From Bdellovibrionales bacterium (GTDB lineage Bacteria > Bdellovibrionota > Bdellovibrionia > Bdellovibrionales > Bdellovibrionaceae), in contig JAFEAQ010000006.1 in assembly GCA_018266295.1 (NCBI GenBank), positions 186,001-250,000 on the forward strand: a stretch of DNA of 64,000 nt, written 5' to 3'. The notes below the pieces were generated by a model. The model worked only from the letters and a program-made list of their open reading frames with translations. It made no database searches and had not been told where the DNA came from. A program made the translations under genes and the position numbers. This document shows, piece after piece, positions 57,281 through 63,921 of this stretch; position 1 is the stretch's first letter; each line of letters starts with the position of its first letter.

Positions 57281-58195
57281 ATGATTTTAATCGTCCTGCT
57301 TGCCGCAGTTTACAGCATGAGTAGTTTCTTTGATTTGCCTGCAAAATTATCAGAGCACTCGCTGATGATTCATCATTTCTGTTTACAAATGCTTCCAACG
57401 AGGGTGGAAAACCACGGCAGTTTAGAAGCTTTGGTATGCGGAAAAAATATGCAAGAGCTCGAGTTGCAGCAGCTTCTTGTGCAATCTTCACTCATCCATG
57501 TCTTCATTGTCTCAGGCTCTCACTTCCTTTTCTTGCATAAATTGTTAGCACGAGTTCCGATTGTGCGTTTTTGTCCACTGTTAGTGTTGTCGGTGTATTG
57601 CTTGGCAACTCTTTGTCAGCCGCCGGCACTTCGTTCACTTCTGTTTCTGTCACTTGTTAGTTTCACAAAACAGCAAAAAAGGTTTCCGTCGCCGGTGATT
57701 TTGGTTTTCATCAGTTGCGCTTTCAGTGTGTGTATTTTCCCACAGTGGATCACGTCCCGTTCCCTTTTGATGAGCTTGCTCGCGGCACTGACCATCGCGG
57801 TGATGTCAGAATTTTGGGGAAAGAATCGCGGGAGCATTCCGGAAATGTTCGCAACTCAATCCACCATTTACGTGGTGATGGCGTTTTGTCTATGGGGGTT
57901 TTCCAATCTGCATCCGCTCAGCATCTTGATGAACATGATCTTTGCTCCGTTGATTGGAGCAGTCATTTTCCCACTGGCCCTTCTTGTCATTGTTTTGCCG
58001 CCACTCGGTTTTGTTTTTGATGCTGCTATGAATGCATTGATTTGGATTTTACGGAACACCTCGGAAGTCCTCGGTGAAAACGGTGCTGGAGAACTCGTTC
58101 CTGTTGTTTGGCAATGGACTTTGTTTCTAGTGCTGACCGCGGCGTCTTATTCTTACCTCATTCAACAAAAGCGCCGGAAGGTTCGTCGTGCCTAA
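57281..58195 (+). CDS. comEC: ComEC membrane (competence) domain, split gene part 1
   Basis: A 304-residue polytopic membrane protein. The central motif SSLIHVFIVSGSHFLFLHKLL (about 69-89) is the ComEC competence-domain signature (H-x-x-x-V-S-G-x-H). Several hydrophobic segments follow, with FSNLHPLSILMNMIFAPL near residue 215 as in this family. ComEC forms the channel for single-stranded DNA in natural transformation. Normally one protein also has an N-terminal OB domain and a C-terminal metallo-beta-lactamase domain. Here the OB domain seems very short and the nuclease-like domain is a separate overlapping gene. No Shine-Dalgarno is seen. Confidence 0.88.
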   Translation: MILIVLLAAVYSMSSFFDLPAKLSEHSLMIHHFCLQMLPTRVENHGSLEALVCGKNMQELELQQLLVQSSLIHVFIVSGSHFLFLHKLLARVPIVRFCPLLVLSVYCLATLCQPPALRSLLFLSLVSFTKQQKRFPSPVILVFISCAFSVCIFPQWITSRSLLMSLLAALTIAVMSEFWGKNRGSIPEMFATQSTIYVVMAFCLWGFSNLHPLSILMNMIFAPLIGAVIFPLALLVIVLPPLGFVFDAAMNALIWILRNTSEVLGENGAGELVPVVWQWTLFLVLTAASYSYLIQQKRRKVRRA

Positions 58196-58937
58196 AGTGT
58201 GGCTTGCCGTTGTGTTTTTGATTTTGTTTTCACCGGCTTTTCTGAAAGATGAAGGTCGGATGAAACACTATTGGATTGTCTGGAATGTCGGCCAAGGGCA
58301 ATGGGCCACGCTCGTTGATGAAAAATCCTGCCGACACTTCGATATGGGAGGAGAGAAAAATCCCCTTCCCCGCCTCCACCGCCTCTGTGGGGGGAAAGAA
58401 AACTTCATCTCTCTAAGCCACTGGGATCTTGATCACGTCGGCTTTGCGCTGCGGGCGAGAAAGTTTTTACCGAAAGCGTGTCTGGAAACTCCCCCTCTGG
58501 GGAAATCTTCGCCATACAAGATGAAGATTCTCAGTGCGTTTGCAAAGTGCTCTGACAATTATACGAGTCCCGCCAAAGAACTGACACATTTTTCTTCGGC
58601 GGATCTCCGTCAGAAAACCAATGAGCTCAGTCATGTTTTTTTGGTGGCTCAAACGTTTCTAATTCCGGGCGATTCGACGGCAAAACAGGAAAAAATCTGG
58701 AGTGAGAATGCGGAGCTGGGGCGGACGAAGTTTTTACTGCTCGGCCATCACGGCAGCCGCACCAGCACCTCGGAAGAATTACTCAGTCATTTAAGGACTC
58801 TCAAAACCGCCGTGGCTTCGGCGCGATTTGCCAAATACGGTCATCCGCACCAAGAGGTGGTGCGGCGACTGCAGAAATATCATGTTCCACTTTTGAAAAC
58901 AGAAGACTGGGGAAACCTGTGGTTTGAAAACCCTTAA
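58188..58937 (+). CDS. ComEC metallo-beta-lactamase domain, split gene part 2
   Basis: A 249-residue protein starting at GTG 58188, overlapping the stop of part 1 by eight bases. The start codon lies in the last codons of part 1, so translation is coupled. It begins with a hydrophobic segment (about 5-17), then VWNVGQGQWATLV. The metal motif SHWDLDH is at residues 77-83 (His78, Asp80, Asp82, His83). IPGDST and LLGHHGSRTSTSEELL close the ComEC-type MBL domain. The motifs are complete, so DNA strand degradation or handling may be intact. One frame change in the sequence would also create this split; the overlap and the well-placed GTG argue for a real one. Confidence 0.88.
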   Translation: MPKVWLAVVFLILFSPAFLKDEGRMKHYWIVWNVGQGQWATLVDEKSCRHFDMGGEKNPLPRLHRLCGGKENFISLSHWDLDHVGFALRARKFLPKACLETPPLGKSSPYKMKILSAFAKCSDNYTSPAKELTHFSSADLRQKTNELSHVFLVAQTFLIPGDSTAKQEKIWSENAELGRTKFLLLGHHGSRTSTSEELLSHLRTLKTAVASARFAKYGHPHQEVVRRLQKYHVPLLKTEDWGNLWFENP

Positions 58938-58944
58938 GCCCTGT

Positions 58945-60039
58945 CTAATCCATGCTTGCGTTTGCAAGGCCCAAGTAGTCTTTCACGTATTTTTTAATAG
59001 CGTCTTTGAAGCGTTCGGGATCTTTTCCGATCATCTTTAAGAGCTTCGGCCCTTCGGGCTGATGAGCTTGAGTCAAACCGATAATATTTGCGATATAAAT
59101 GCGCGCCTCATCTTCTTCAGCGCGATTTTTATAACTGAGAACTTCGACTTTCTTCTCGCGGATCCAGTACTTGTTGCCACCTGCTTCAACAAGATCGTAG
59201 GCACTTGGATTAATACCGGGCCAATAAATCTCATGTAAATCCTCAACCCGTTCGTAAGCATCTGCCTGACGCGAATATTCGTGCAGGGCTGTGTCTACGT
59301 AGGGTTTTAATTCCGTAATGTGGTAAGAGCCGTCTTTACTCTGAGTCAGAACCCACAAGCGCTCCCCTGCATCTAAGCTGCCACCACGCTCAAGCGGGCG
59401 CTTTGCAACTTCAATCACCCTCACGCCCGGAAAAAGAGATTTCACTTCATTGAGACCAGGATAACCGTCCCACTTTTCAATTTCACCGGCTTTGTATTTA
59501 AAATGTCCGTCGACCATTTTCTTTGCGACGTACGCGGCCCGCTGGGCTTCGTAAGTTTGCATGTCCATGGACATCGCTTTAGCGATGCTCTTTGGCATGG
59601 CCACCTCTTTACCCTGAAGACCTTGGAAATAAGCATTAAAAAGATCTTTTGCACGAATATCTTTGGAAGATGCTTTTGCCACTAGAACAAAGCGTGCATA
59701 TTCCAAAGCAAATGGCCCTTTACCACCGTCATCAAAGTCGACATTCAAAAATCTCATGACGTTTTGACCATTCTTGGTTTGCACGGGAATGACCGACATA
59801 TTACCGAGATGTGGATCCCCGCTGATCGTGCCATAAGGGTCAGTGTAGTTCACTAGATCGCCAAGAACACGCGGATCACGATTGTAAGACCAGATATGGT
59901 CCGCATTACTGCGAAGGAGCTGGGACACATTCTTAGAAAGTTCAACTTGCTTAAAGCCAAAGGCATCCGGGATGCTCCCTTGGGGAACGAGCGGAACGCT
60001 TAAATTAAAAACGAGTGCGCATGCTAAAACTGTGCTCAT
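58945..60039 (-). CDS. DUF2252 kinase-fold protein, likely exported
   Basis: A 364-residue protein of the DUF2252 family, whose fold is that of protein kinases. SGDPHLGNMSV (about 72-82) and LNVDFDDGGKGPFALEYARF (about 98-117) carry the residues that correspond to the catalytic loop and metal-binding Asp. A hydrophobic N-terminus (MSTVLACALVFNLSVPLV) looks like a signal peptide, although it lacks positive charges. It is six bases after the preceding FAM20-like gene and the two are one operon. The role as a kinase is inferred; no DUF2252 substrate is known to me. Confidence 0.8.
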   Translation of the reverse strand: MSTVLACALVFNLSVPLVPQGSIPDAFGFKQVELSKNVSQLLRSNADHIWSYNRDPRVLGDLVNYTDPYGTISGDPHLGNMSVIPVQTKNGQNVMRFLNVDFDDGGKGPFALEYARFVLVAKASSKDIRAKDLFNAYFQGLQGKEVAMPKSIAKAMSMDMQTYEAQRAAYVAKKMVDGHFKYKAGEIEKWDGYPGLNEVKSLFPGVRVIEVAKRPLERGGSLDAGERLWVLTQSKDGSYHITELKPYVDTALHEYSRQADAYERVEDLHEIYWPGINPSAYDLVEAGGNKYWIREKKVEVLSYKNRAEEDEARIYIANIIGLTQAHQPEGPKLLKMIGKDPERFKDAIKKYVKDYLGLANASMD

Positions 60040-60045
60040 GGCTAA

Positions 60046-61350
60046 TTACTCGCAATTCTGAGAAAGTGGTTTGCCGGCAAATTGCACATCCATATCCAAA
60101 TCAAGCTTCAAAGTGCCAGCTTGACAGAACTTCTTCAACATCGCAGCCAGTTGATTCAAGTTTCCTTTAATGGATTTCAAATCGGCGTCTGTCATCAAAG
60201 TTTCATCTTTAAAGAACTTGCGTGTTTCTTCATTCTCCATCGCTGCGTTGAACTTCATTAAGCGGGTGTAAGTGCCTTGATTCATGTGACGAAGGCCCTC
60301 AGCCAGCTTCGCACCCTTCACAACATTGCCTTTAGAAACGCCGCAATCGTTATCTTTCAACATCATCGCTTTCAAAGCGATCGCCCCTGTTTGGCGAACT
60401 TCTTCGGGCTTCATCTTCGAAGTGCTCTTGATGTTTTGCGCATCGTTTGGATCTTTATAGAAGTACTTCATCGTAAAATGCACATTACCGAAGCGGTCAT
60501 GTTGATTCATGATGGTGTCCATCACGATCAGTTCACTCACATCTTTCATTTGCTGAAGCTTTTGTGCGTTCGCAACAGTGAAGCTGTTACCCACTAATTG
60601 ATTCACGCTTCGGCCATCTTTCAATAAAGCATAAATTGGATTGCGAGCCCCGAAGCGAATCGCACGCTCTTGTGTGTCGGCACCGCCGTTGAACATTTCA
60701 GTGTATCTCTCTTCATTGCGCGGATTTTCTTGCAGAGCTGCATAAGACTGTTTGAAGTCCGACGTTAAAACCTCGTCTTTATATTTACCCGCGGAACCCG
60801 CTGCAAGTTTCTTCGCGTAGCTGTCCCATGTCTGCCAAATCAAGCTGCCGCTTTTAGTGATGCTCATTCCTTTTGCCGCAAGCTGCTGATGTTTTTTCAA
60901 GTCCATGGTTCTTAAAACCGCCGGTGGTACTTGCAAGATATCGCCGAGGATTCTTGAAACATGGTAGTAACCAACAAGCGACGGAGTGTAACTGCAGCTG
61001 GTGCTGCCTTTGTATTTTGCGAGCATTTTCGCGCCGTCGAGCTGACAAGTTTTTGCTTCAACCTGAGCTGCCGTCATGCCTTCGGGAACCATATGAAATT
61101 GTACGCCGGGATTTGTGCTTGCGGTCTTTGGGCAAAACGCCACCGGCTCAGTTCCGCCAAAAGAGCAAAGCTCCTGTTCTTTTTCGATATCTCGTTTGGA
61201 GTACTTAGCTTCTGGAAACTTCTTTGGAATCACACAGACTTCAGTGGCCCCGCTTGTTGGGATTTGAACAATTTGTGTCCCACGATTGTAAGTCGTGGTC
61301 ATCCCAGCCATGGTGATCGGCACCAAAAGGGCCATTAAATTCGAAAGCAT
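60046..61350 (-). CDS. Exported FAM20/HipA-like kinase
   Basis: A 434-residue exported protein. ATG 61350 is chosen because AAGGAG lies seven bases upstream; the longer frames have no site. A short hydrophobic start (MLSNLMALLVPITMA) acts as signal. About residue 278 is LIVMDTIMNQHDRFGNVHF, the Asp-x-x-x-x-Asn-x-x-Asp-Arg catalytic loop form of FAM20C and HipA-type kinases, followed near 333 by KDNDCGVS in place of the Asp-Asn-Gly metal site. Cysteines in the N-terminal third suggest disulfides, fitting a periplasmic location. FAM20C phosphorylates secreted proteins in animals. The kinase call rests on the motif, with good spacing. Confidence 0.72.
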   Translation of the reverse strand: MLSNLMALLVPITMAGMTTTYNRGTQIVQIPTSGATEVCVIPKKFPEAKYSKRDIEKEQELCSFGGTEPVAFCPKTASTNPGVQFHMVPEGMTAAQVEAKTCQLDGAKMLAKYKGSTSCSYTPSLVGYYHVSRILGDILQVPPAVLRTMDLKKHQQLAAKGMSITKSGSLIWQTWDSYAKKLAAGSAGKYKDEVLTSDFKQSYAALQENPRNEERYTEMFNGGADTQERAIRFGARNPIYALLKDGRSVNQLVGNSFTVANAQKLQQMKDVSELIVMDTIMNQHDRFGNVHFTMKYFYKDPNDAQNIKSTSKMKPEEVRQTGAIALKAMMLKDNDCGVSKGNVVKGAKLAEGLRHMNQGTYTRLMKFNAAMENEETRKFFKDETLMTDADLKSIKGNLNQLAAMLKKFCQAGTLKLDLDMDVQFAGKPLSQNCE

Positions 61351-61569
61351 AAGGGTCTCCTTCATAACATGAATGACATTCAACTCTTCAAATGGAAGGC
61401 CATGGGATGCTCCCTAAAAACGTTTAAATTCAGGCTGGGTCAGGACTTCGTCAGGATTCAGTTAAAGGGACGCTAAAGGGCCACCTGCTGTCAAAAAGTG
61501 TGACAGACGATGGTCCAGATTCAGGGCCGGACGCTCTCTGTTTGGCGGAACATGCGACACAATTAAGCA

Positions 61570-62388
61570 ATGACGACATTAACAAAATCAGTAATCGTGT
61601 GTGTTCTTTTGTGTGGCTGCGCTGGATCTCTTCAAGCAAAATCTCAGGATTTCGAGCAGGAACAAGCTCCGTTTGCGAGTGCTCCTGAAGCAGAAAAATT
61701 CAACCAAACCGAAAGTGTGATCTACTATCAAAACCGTTATGTTTTGAAAAATGCTTACGACAAGCTGGTTGATAATCAGGGGAATGGTTACGAGAAACTG
61801 TACGGTGTGCGCAACTTCCGTGCGGTTCTAAATGGTGTTGTGTACCGTGGCGGCGCGAATAATGCTTACAATAAGTACGGTAAGCGTGCGAACCAGAATC
61901 CACTGCCGGCGATGGGCTTGACGAATCTGTGTCAAGAGGGCTTCGGCACGGCGATTTACCTTTACCCGACGAATTACAGTACGGCGGCAAAGACCACGAA
62001 CTGTAAGTCTGTGGTGGATGGTTCGGCTCAAAAGCTAAGCTACGCACAGATCAGCCCACTATCAAGCGACACAGAAGCGCGCAAAATCTTGAATATCATT
62101 TACAAGAAATTAACCACGGACACAGATCACTCGCCGATTTACATGCACTGCTGGAACGGCTGGCATGCATCAGGTTTGATTTCGGCATACACGTTGCGCC
62201 AGTTCTGTGACTTTACCGGCGAGCAGGCGGTATCGTACTGGAATCGCAACACAGACGGCGTAAACCAGGGCTCAAGCTACGACCGCATCCGCGCAAAAAT
62301 CCGCGCCTTCACGCCAGACTCGAGCATGAAAATCGACCCTGCACTGAAGGCCCAAATCTGCCCAAGCAACAAAAACTTCACAGAATAA
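61570..62388 (+). CDS. Exported dual-specificity-phosphatase-like lipoprotein, active Arg missing
   Basis: A 272-residue lipoprotein with lipobox VLLCGC (Cys 17). The fold pattern is that of DSP-type phosphatases: FRAVLNGVVYRGG near residue 84, GLTNLCQEGFGTAIYLY near 117, and the P-loop PIYMHCWNGWHASGLISAYTL (about 189-209) with catalytic Cys194. In CX5R phosphatases the sixth residue after Cys is Arg; here it is Ala200. The chain is otherwise intact, including helices after the loop. It may be a pseudophosphatase that binds phosphate groups, or use another residue. It is divergent from the two kinase-like genes. Confidence 0.75.
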   Translation: MTTLTKSVIVCVLLCGCAGSLQAKSQDFEQEQAPFASAPEAEKFNQTESVIYYQNRYVLKNAYDKLVDNQGNGYEKLYGVRNFRAVLNGVVYRGGANNAYNKYGKRANQNPLPAMGLTNLCQEGFGTAIYLYPTNYSTAAKTTNCKSVVDGSAQKLSYAQISPLSSDTEARKILNIIYKKLTTDTDHSPIYMHCWNGWHASGLISAYTLRQFCDFTGEQAVSYWNRNTDGVNQGSSYDRIRAKIRAFTPDSSMKIDPALKAQICPSNKNFTE

Positions 62389-62811: not shown

Positions 62812-62868
62812 CGCCAATTGGCGGTGTTGTTTAATTTTTCTACACGCTGGACGTGACTGGTGCGCTTT

Positions 62869-63921
62869 ATGGTTAGACATATTTTTATCCTCTTAGCCGC
62901 CCTCGTGCTTTCTCCACAAGTGTTTGCAGCACCCGCCGGAGTTGTCGACGCCATCACCGTGTCCGCCGTCGGCGACGTTATGATGGGCACCACCTATCCC
63001 ACCGACACCCTCCCGTCAGACGGTGGCAAAAAATTATTTAAGTACAGCAAAGAGTATCTCAAAGCCGCCGACATCCGCGTCGGCAACCTCGAAGGGACGT
63101 TGTACGACGGCGCCGTCGCCCTCGACGGTAAAGCCACGGGCCCGAACCGCTATCTCTTTCGCACACCGACCACCTATGCCCCCCTCCTCGTCGATGCGGG
63201 CTTCAACGTCATGAGTCTCGCAAACAATCACGCCATGGACTTCGGTAAAGCCGGCATCGAGTCCACAAAGAAAACCCTTCAAGCCAACGGCATCCAATAC
63301 TCCAGCAAAATGGGCAAAGAGGTCGCACAGTTCAACATTCGCGGCATCAAAGTCGCTCTGATTTCTTGTGACTTCTACTCGGGCCCTCGCAGCATCAGCA
63401 CTCCCGACGCCACTTACGCTGAGATCCGCGAGCTGAAGAAAAATTTCGACATCGTGATTGTCACTGCTCACGCCGGAGGCGAAGGCCGCGGCGCTGAACG
63501 CGTAAAAAACGCGCCTGAAATTTTCCTCGGCGAAAATCGCGGGAACTCCGTCGCCTTCGCCCGCACGGCTATCGACAACGGCGCCAGCCTCATTCTGATG
63601 TCAGGCCCCCACGTCCCCCGCGGCATGGAAGTCTATAAGAACAAACTCATCGCCTACAGCCTCGGAAACTTCGTTACCGGCCGCGGAATCAACATCGAAG
63701 GCTATGCCGGCGTCGCCCCCCTCCTGCGTGTGCAGATGGACCGCAACGGCAACTTCACGCAAGGCCATTTGGCCTCTTTCCGCCAAGCTCGCGACAATGG
63801 CGCTGTCTATGATAAAACAGGCTACGCTTTCAATTTCGTGAGCAAGCTCTCGGAGCTTGATTTTCCCCAAACTATGCCGCAGTTTGATGAGAAGACGGGC
63901 CGCATTTCTCCAGCAAAGTAA
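62869..63921 (+). CDS. Exported CapA-family metallophosphatase-like protein
   Basis: A 350-residue exported protein. ATG 62869 is used because the signal peptide starts there (MVRHIFILLAALVLSPQVFA); GTG 62860 is an alternative and neither has a strong ribosome site. The CapA/PgsA layout is clear: VSAVGDVMMG, VGNLEGTLYDG, MSLANNHAMDFG, VTAHAGGEG, SGPHVPRG and AYSLGNFVTG. These Asp, Asn and His residues form the metal centre of the calcineurin-like fold. CapA in bacilli helps make poly-gamma-glutamate capsule; the role of Gram-negative exported homologues is less clear. No cap operon genes are beside it. Confidence 0.88.
   Translation: MVRHIFILLAALVLSPQVFAAPAGVVDAITVSAVGDVMMGTTYPTDTLPSDGGKKLFKYSKEYLKAADIRVGNLEGTLYDGAVALDGKATGPNRYLFRTPTTYAPLLVDAGFNVMSLANNHAMDFGKAGIESTKKTLQANGIQYSSKMGKEVAQFNIRGIKVALISCDFYSGPRSISTPDATYAEIRELKKNFDIVIVTAHAGGEGRGAERVKNAPEIFLGENRGNSVAFARTAIDNGASLILMSGPHVPRGMEVYKNKLIAYSLGNFVTGRGINIEGYAGVAPLLRVQMDRNGNFTQGHLASFRQARDNGAVYDKTGYAFNFVSKLSELDFPQTMPQFDEKTGRISPAK

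Follow-up and report, generated by a model that had tools for sequence, protein, structure and literature searches.

A three-gene locus in the window, by which we mean the whole 64,000-nucleotide stretch of a Bdellovibrionales genome analyzed here, is predicted to encode an exported phospho-modification (kinase-phosphatase) module, a reading that we favor with modest confidence. Structural modeling assigns the middle protein, P0002, to the FAM20 fold. Its gene is followed by one that encodes a DUF2252-like protein (P0001) and lies divergent to one that encodes a lipoprotein predicted to be related to Siw14-type phosphatases (P0003). Across genomes, the conserved core is the FAM20-like gene together with the phosphatase-fold gene, and the DUF2252 partner is restricted to one subclade.

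Gene arrangement of the locus

The genes for P0002 and P0001 are separated by 6 bp, with P0001 downstream, and P0003 is transcribed away from them (Table 1). The gap between P0002 and P0003 is 204 bp when measured from the ATG of P0002, or 186 bp from a possible alternative TTG start at 61383, rather than the 220 bases given in the original prediction. This region presumably holds the promoters of both genes; a scan of it with the sigma-70 consensus found no promoter match. A terminator-like hairpin lies 3' of P0003, and such sites are no more numerous in the region than in shuffled sequences. The three ORFs occur where they were first reported. Among 141 genomes of the order, 44 keep the family of P0002, 41 that of P0001 and 33 that of P0003, which excludes chance ORFs.

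Table 1. Features of the locus, with positions in the window
Feature	Position	Strand	Length or basis
P0001, DUF2252-like kinase, predicted exported	58945-60039	-	364 aa ORF
P0002, FAM20-fold kinase-like protein, predicted exported	60046-61365	-	439 aa from ATG
P0003, DSP/Siw14-like predicted lipoprotein	61570-62388	+	272 aa ORF
Intergenic region, P0002/P0003 divergent	61366-61569	.	sequence
Terminator-like hairpin, 3' of P0003	62411-62439	+	11-pair stem, then T tract

The flanking genes are on the plus strand. A ComEC-type competence protein is encoded by two overlapping ORFs, the first of which (57281-58195) matches PF03772 and the second of which (58188-58937) resembles the metallo-hydrolase half and has no Pfam match. 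Downstream of P0003 is a gene for an exported PGA_cap (CapA-type) protein (62860-63921, E 2e-46) that was not seen adjoining family members in other genomes. A search for anti-phage defence genes gave no PADLOC match.

Predicted folds and active sites

The AlphaFold2 model of P0002, made from an alignment of 30 sequences, had a mean pLDDT of 92.4 and a pTM of 0.91. Using Foldseek, we found that its top PDB match was DrFam20C1 (E 2e-7, probability 1.00) and that all 22 PDB matches under E 0.001 were FAM20 proteins. A VIA comparison with FAM20C gave Z 18.5 over 286 aligned residues (rmsd 3.9), and one with hydra Fam20, which is a xylosylkinase, gave Z 18. Lower scores were obtained with PI4KII (16), CtkA (11.9), CotH (10.8), HipT (10.7) and HipA (8 to 9). 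Searches by sequence returned little: neither P0002 nor its relatives had a convincing model in Pfam or NCBIfam, the FAM20 Pfam model matched 0 of 30 family members at E<=1, and nothing meaningful was found in the PDB. An hhalign comparison of P0002 with four FAM20 sequences was weak (probability 50, E 2.5e-5) and in register at the shared motifs. This protein had been described as FAM20/HipA-like, and the FAM20 half of that description stands. No HipA or CotH model in Pfam or NCBIfam matched P0002 or its relatives and no HipB-like neighbor was noted in the neighborhoods that were read; with the better match to FAM20, we dropped the idea that P0002 is a HipA toxin. No viral or plasmid relatives were found.

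Ten putative active-site residues (K117, K119, D283, Q288, D290, R291, N294, D338, N339 and D340) are identical in 47 of 47 P0002 relatives. The catalytic Asp of the DR motif, the metal-binding Asp of the DN motif and the two lysines match FAM20 sequences from the PDB by motif. The catalytic loop reads D283-T-I-M-N-Q-H-D290-R291, so that the D-x-x-x-x-N-x-x-D-R form first proposed was off by one in its spacing, and N287 varies among relatives. Across the 47 relatives, the segment from K119 to the VP motif has no conserved acidic residue. A Glu in the β3-αC loop (E213 in ceFam20) is essential in FAM20C, and FAM20A, which has Gln where FAM20C needs this Glu, is a pseudokinase (PMC5413348). Because the essential Glu has no counterpart in P0002, we call the protein kinase-like and not a proven kinase.

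The cysteines of P0002 point to folding outside the cytoplasm. C124 and C341 are both present in 37 relatives, both absent in 10 and never found singly (p 2e-10), and C414 and C438 are likewise present or lost together. Such paired loss is what is expected of disulfides, so P0002 most likely folds outside the cytoplasm. Signal-like N-termini, as predicted for all three proteins, are found across the families, with a hydrophobic 12-mer in 24/28 relatives of P0002, 22/25 of P0001 and 27/28 of P0003. The genome of the window holds a second FAM20-like copy (L136 6010-7497; G000:C15, about 176000-177500) that has no phosphatase neighbor.

The proposed DUF2252 kinase fold of P0001 is upheld at the level of the family, since Pfam DUF2252 (PF10009) matches 25/25 members (best E 6e-19); the window protein alone falls below the curated cut-off (E 0.12). 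The GDPHLGN catalytic loop (residues 74-80) comes first, followed by the DFDD metal motif (101-104), a G-loop at about 218-220, and E243/K245. D75, N80, D101, D103, G219, E243 and K245 are conserved in 25/25 members, and both GDPHLGN and DFDDGG, as first reported, are found within these conserved residues. In the AlphaFold2 model (pLDDT 90.9) the catalytic loop precedes the N-lobe β strands; the segment at about 200-298 gives low-Z alignments to the N-lobes of ordinary kinases, and the early part of the protein aligns with the C-lobe of APH. Foldseek found no match under 0.001 and the VIA score did not exceed Z 4.1, as permuted lobes would lead one to expect. When the profile was re-ordered, the hhalign match to APH did not lengthen; the case for permutation is therefore made by topology and the two separate partial matches, not by this re-ordering. 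We predict from the family matches and the model that P0001 is a divergent, active-looking DUF2252 kinase with its N- and C-lobes in swapped order.

Other DUF2252-like proteins were seen in additional settings. In the genome of the window (L138; G000:C6, about 340914-346026), a gene for an exported canonical phosphatase with an intact HCQKGADRTG (L138 915-1424) lies about 3.4 kb from one for an exported DUF2252 paralogue (L138 4840-6027), and between them are a phosphoesterase gene and a two-component pair. Another DUF2252 paralogue in this genome adjoins the gene for an exported protein of 875 aa (L137 7211-9838, G000:C14), which contains PKD domains and shows a weak match of the thrombospondin type. 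A 732-aa protein from G135 (L140 2620-4818) combines a DUF2252-like domain with a Porin_5 β-barrel domain, so that a kinase-like domain is apparently attached to an outer-membrane porin.

P0003 had been taken for a degenerate DSP-type protein, and this agrees with our results. Y_phosphatase2 (PF03162) weakly matches 17/29 family members (best E 9e-4), and the P0003 profile picks up an exported canonical phosphatase with HCQHGKDRTG (E 5e-9). Siw14 enzymes carry the P-loop HCxRGKHRT (PMC10653929). The P-loop of P0003 is HCWNGWHASG (C-x5-A) and that of its relatives HCWNGWH[AS]SG, the three basic residues of Siw14 being replaced in the family by Asn, Trp and Ala/Ser; they are missing from additional relatives as well. 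Cys194, Gly and His of this loop are retained in 29/29 relatives. Position 200, which corresponds to the arginine of CX5R, is Ala in 19 and Ser in 10 of them, and Ala or Glu in six further relatives. The absence of this arginine from every relative makes ordinary phosphatase chemistry unlikely, and we dropped the idea that P0003 is an ordinary phosphatase; that Cys and His persist throughout although the Arg is missing is puzzling. A lipobox is present in P0003 (LCGC) and in 15/28 relatives. Judged by sequence, P0003 is a degenerate relative of Siw14-type phosphatases and a predicted lipoprotein.

Linkage across genomes and a second exported phosphatase

P0002 and P0003 are found together in 32 of the 141 genomes, P0002 alone in 12, P0003 alone in one and neither in 96 (Fisher 1e-20, a value that treats related genomes as independent). 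About one genome in three of the order carries the P0002 family, and 32/33 genomes with the P0003 family also hold the FAM20-like family. The two genes are adjacent in 20 genomes from eight genera and occur in three arrangements: divergent, P0002 then P0003, and P0003 then P0002. They overlap slightly in two genomes (G099 and G100). The P0001-type genes located beside P0002 form one clade (support 95/89), two members of which were not seen adjacent to it. DUF2252-like genes are mostly found away from P0002, and most P0002 relatives have no P0001 neighbor. One genome (G036) encodes an 823-aa exported protein that fuses P0002-like and DUF2252-like domains, the latter from another branch. For the three-gene set that was originally predicted, the linkage of P0002 with P0003 is therefore supported and P0001 as a fixed member is not. 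The outcomes named beforehand as refuting the prediction, a lack of kinase fold and independent occurrence, were not seen for the FAM20-like/DSP pair.

An exported metallophosphoesterase (PF00149, E 3e-12 to 5e-17) adjoins seven divergent P0002 relatives. We ran a profile built from these seven over 369 genomes of the phylum and compared the matches with the positions of the P0002 family. The metallophosphatase gene adjoins a P0002-family gene in 18 genomes from eight genera (G004, G007, G010, G011, G012, G015, G024, G072, G099, G100, G116, G122, G151, G152, G177, G178, G179 and G190), and the genome of the window (G000) has no match to the profile at E<=1e-20. The nearest solved relatives of this calcineurin-like protein are purple acid phosphatases / TRAP (ACP5; E 6e-7), and from its sequence it is apparently a second, intact eraser. 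In animals, TRAP acts on FAM20C substrates such as osteopontin, which serves here only as an analogy. Overall, a P0002-family gene lies beside a phosphatase-fold gene in 32/57 genomes holding the family, and no such neighbor was found in 25/57.

Other neighbors of FAM20-like genes were also observed. A VTC polyphosphate-polymerase domain gene and a DUF4956 gene are convergent to the FAM20-like gene in four genomes of one genus, g4 (L122, L123, L124 and L127), which we took as local synteny; the window has no VTC gene. Genes in line with FAM20-like genes (L118 9739-13508, L120 10028-13827, L126 6780-7808 and L128 7738-9270) encode exported proteins whose start is Cys-x-x-x-Phe-like and for which Pfam gave no convincing match; they are possible substrates or partners of the FAM20-like proteins.

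Proposed function and comparison with known systems

Folds and families, active sites, export signals and linkage were computed; catalysis, substrate, ATP source and direction of effect we infer. In the proposed mechanism, P0002 would leave the cytoplasm via the Sec route and form its disulfides on folding, in the periplasm or at the cell surface, and would act as a phosphotransferase that uses ATP on a target that is exported or part of the envelope. P0001 would come from the same transcript and be either another writer or the partner of P0002. P0003, anchored in the membrane, would act on the same mark as a reader or regulator or as a phosphatase of altered chemistry. In related genomes the exported purple-acid-type metallophosphatase, encoded next to the FAM20-like gene, would be the eraser. 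We counted for such a module the FAM20 fold as best match, the invariant active site, the paired cysteines, the linkage and the G036 fusion. Counted against it were the missing Glu, the missing CX5R Arg, the genomes in which the family had no phosphatase-fold neighbor and the lone second copy in the host genome. A more specific version is tentative and, in our judgment, possible rather than likely: a Bdellovibrionota counterpart of the animal FAM20-TRAP axis, in which a dedicated FAM20-fold extracytoplasmic protein kinase is genetically coupled to exported erasers of two unrelated folds, perhaps with components of the prey as targets during predation. Given the phylum, the module may plausibly play a part in predation.

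It is somewhat unlikely that P0002 instead phosphorylates an exported glycan or lipid, as FAM20B, which acts on xylose, or PI4KII do, with the phosphatase trimming or recycling the group; this reading falls within the favored one and differs in the substrate. PI4KII is the second-best fold class and the hydra xylosylkinase scores almost as well as FAM20C, and VTC and DUF4956 genes adjoin P0002 in four genomes, but the VTC genes are convergent, confined to one genus and not seen in the window.

P0002 could also be a pseudokinase that activates P0001 as the true kinase, much as FAM20A activates FAM20C, with P0003 a catalytically dead phosphatase limited to binding the phosphorylated product. The lack of an acidic counterpart to the essential Glu (PMC5413348), the complete set of kinase residues in P0001, the close spacing of the two genes, the single fusion of such domains and the loss from P0003 of all three basic residues of the Siw14 P-loop (PMC10653929) are consistent with this. 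However, most P0002 relatives lack a P0001 neighbor, so an activator would need other partners, and conservation of the Lys, catalytic Asp and metal Asp in all relatives, at down to about 30% identity, exceeds what scaffolding needs. We consider this explanation unlikely.

Less probable still is a different transfer by the kinase fold, such as AMPylation or ligation (compare SelO and SidJ), with P0003 removing the group through its conserved Cys and His. The missing Glu, the Asn at D+4 of the catalytic loop and the non-basic P-loop do deviate from standard enzymes, but the linkage of the family to intact metallophosphatases suggests phosphate esters. That these are unrelated exported proteins, neighbors by chance, is very improbable and disfavoured for P0002 and the phosphatase-fold genes: many genomes have the genes at separate places, and most DUF2252-like genes lie elsewhere, yet both phosphatase-type adjacencies recur across eight genera each, with changed gene orders and a fusion.

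For the exported module that we favor, the closest known counterparts are FAM20A/B/C of the animal secretory pathway. P0002 shares with them the fold over nearly the whole chain, paired lysines, predicted disulfides and secretion, and AFHLDRIL..VPP, DR and LDN of FAM20 correspond to YYHVSRIL..VPP (helix motif YYHxSRIL..VPP), DR and KDN of P0002. It differs from them in lacking the essential Glu, in having GN where FAM20 has HHYE after DR, in having different cysteines and in being bacterial. CotH, CtkA and HipA/HipT share the superfamily fold at lower Z, but P0002 has no sequence family match to them, no HipB or toxin-antitoxin context was noted, and it is linked to phosphatases. P0001 has the same motifs as DUF2252 proteins, but is exported, very divergent in the window and, within one subclade, linked to a FAM20-like gene. 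P0003 resembles Siw14/PFA-DSP proteins (PF03162) in keeping Cys and His within its HC..G.H.[ST]G loop and in weak, repeated profile matches, and is unlike them in lacking the three basic P-loop residues and in being a predicted lipoprotein. The purple acid phosphatase-type gene accompanies FAM20-like genes elsewhere but is absent beside the copy in the window.

CotH is also a kinase of exported proteins and, to our knowledge, is the main known case among the few bacterial kinases that act outside the cytoplasm. A study on the evolution of FAM20 traced it within animals and does not mention bacteria (PMC5865150). In the limited set of literature and family libraries consulted, the papers yielded no bacterial FAM20 system, and neither papers nor libraries showed a bacterial FAM20-fold family tied to exported phosphatases. 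Exported kinases and FAM20 proteins are known kinds, and a bacterial system that joins a FAM20 fold to an exported phosphatase appears to be undescribed. Such a family would open extracytoplasmic phosphorylation in Gram-negative bacteria to direct tests and would supply material for comparison in work on how secretory-pathway kinases arose.
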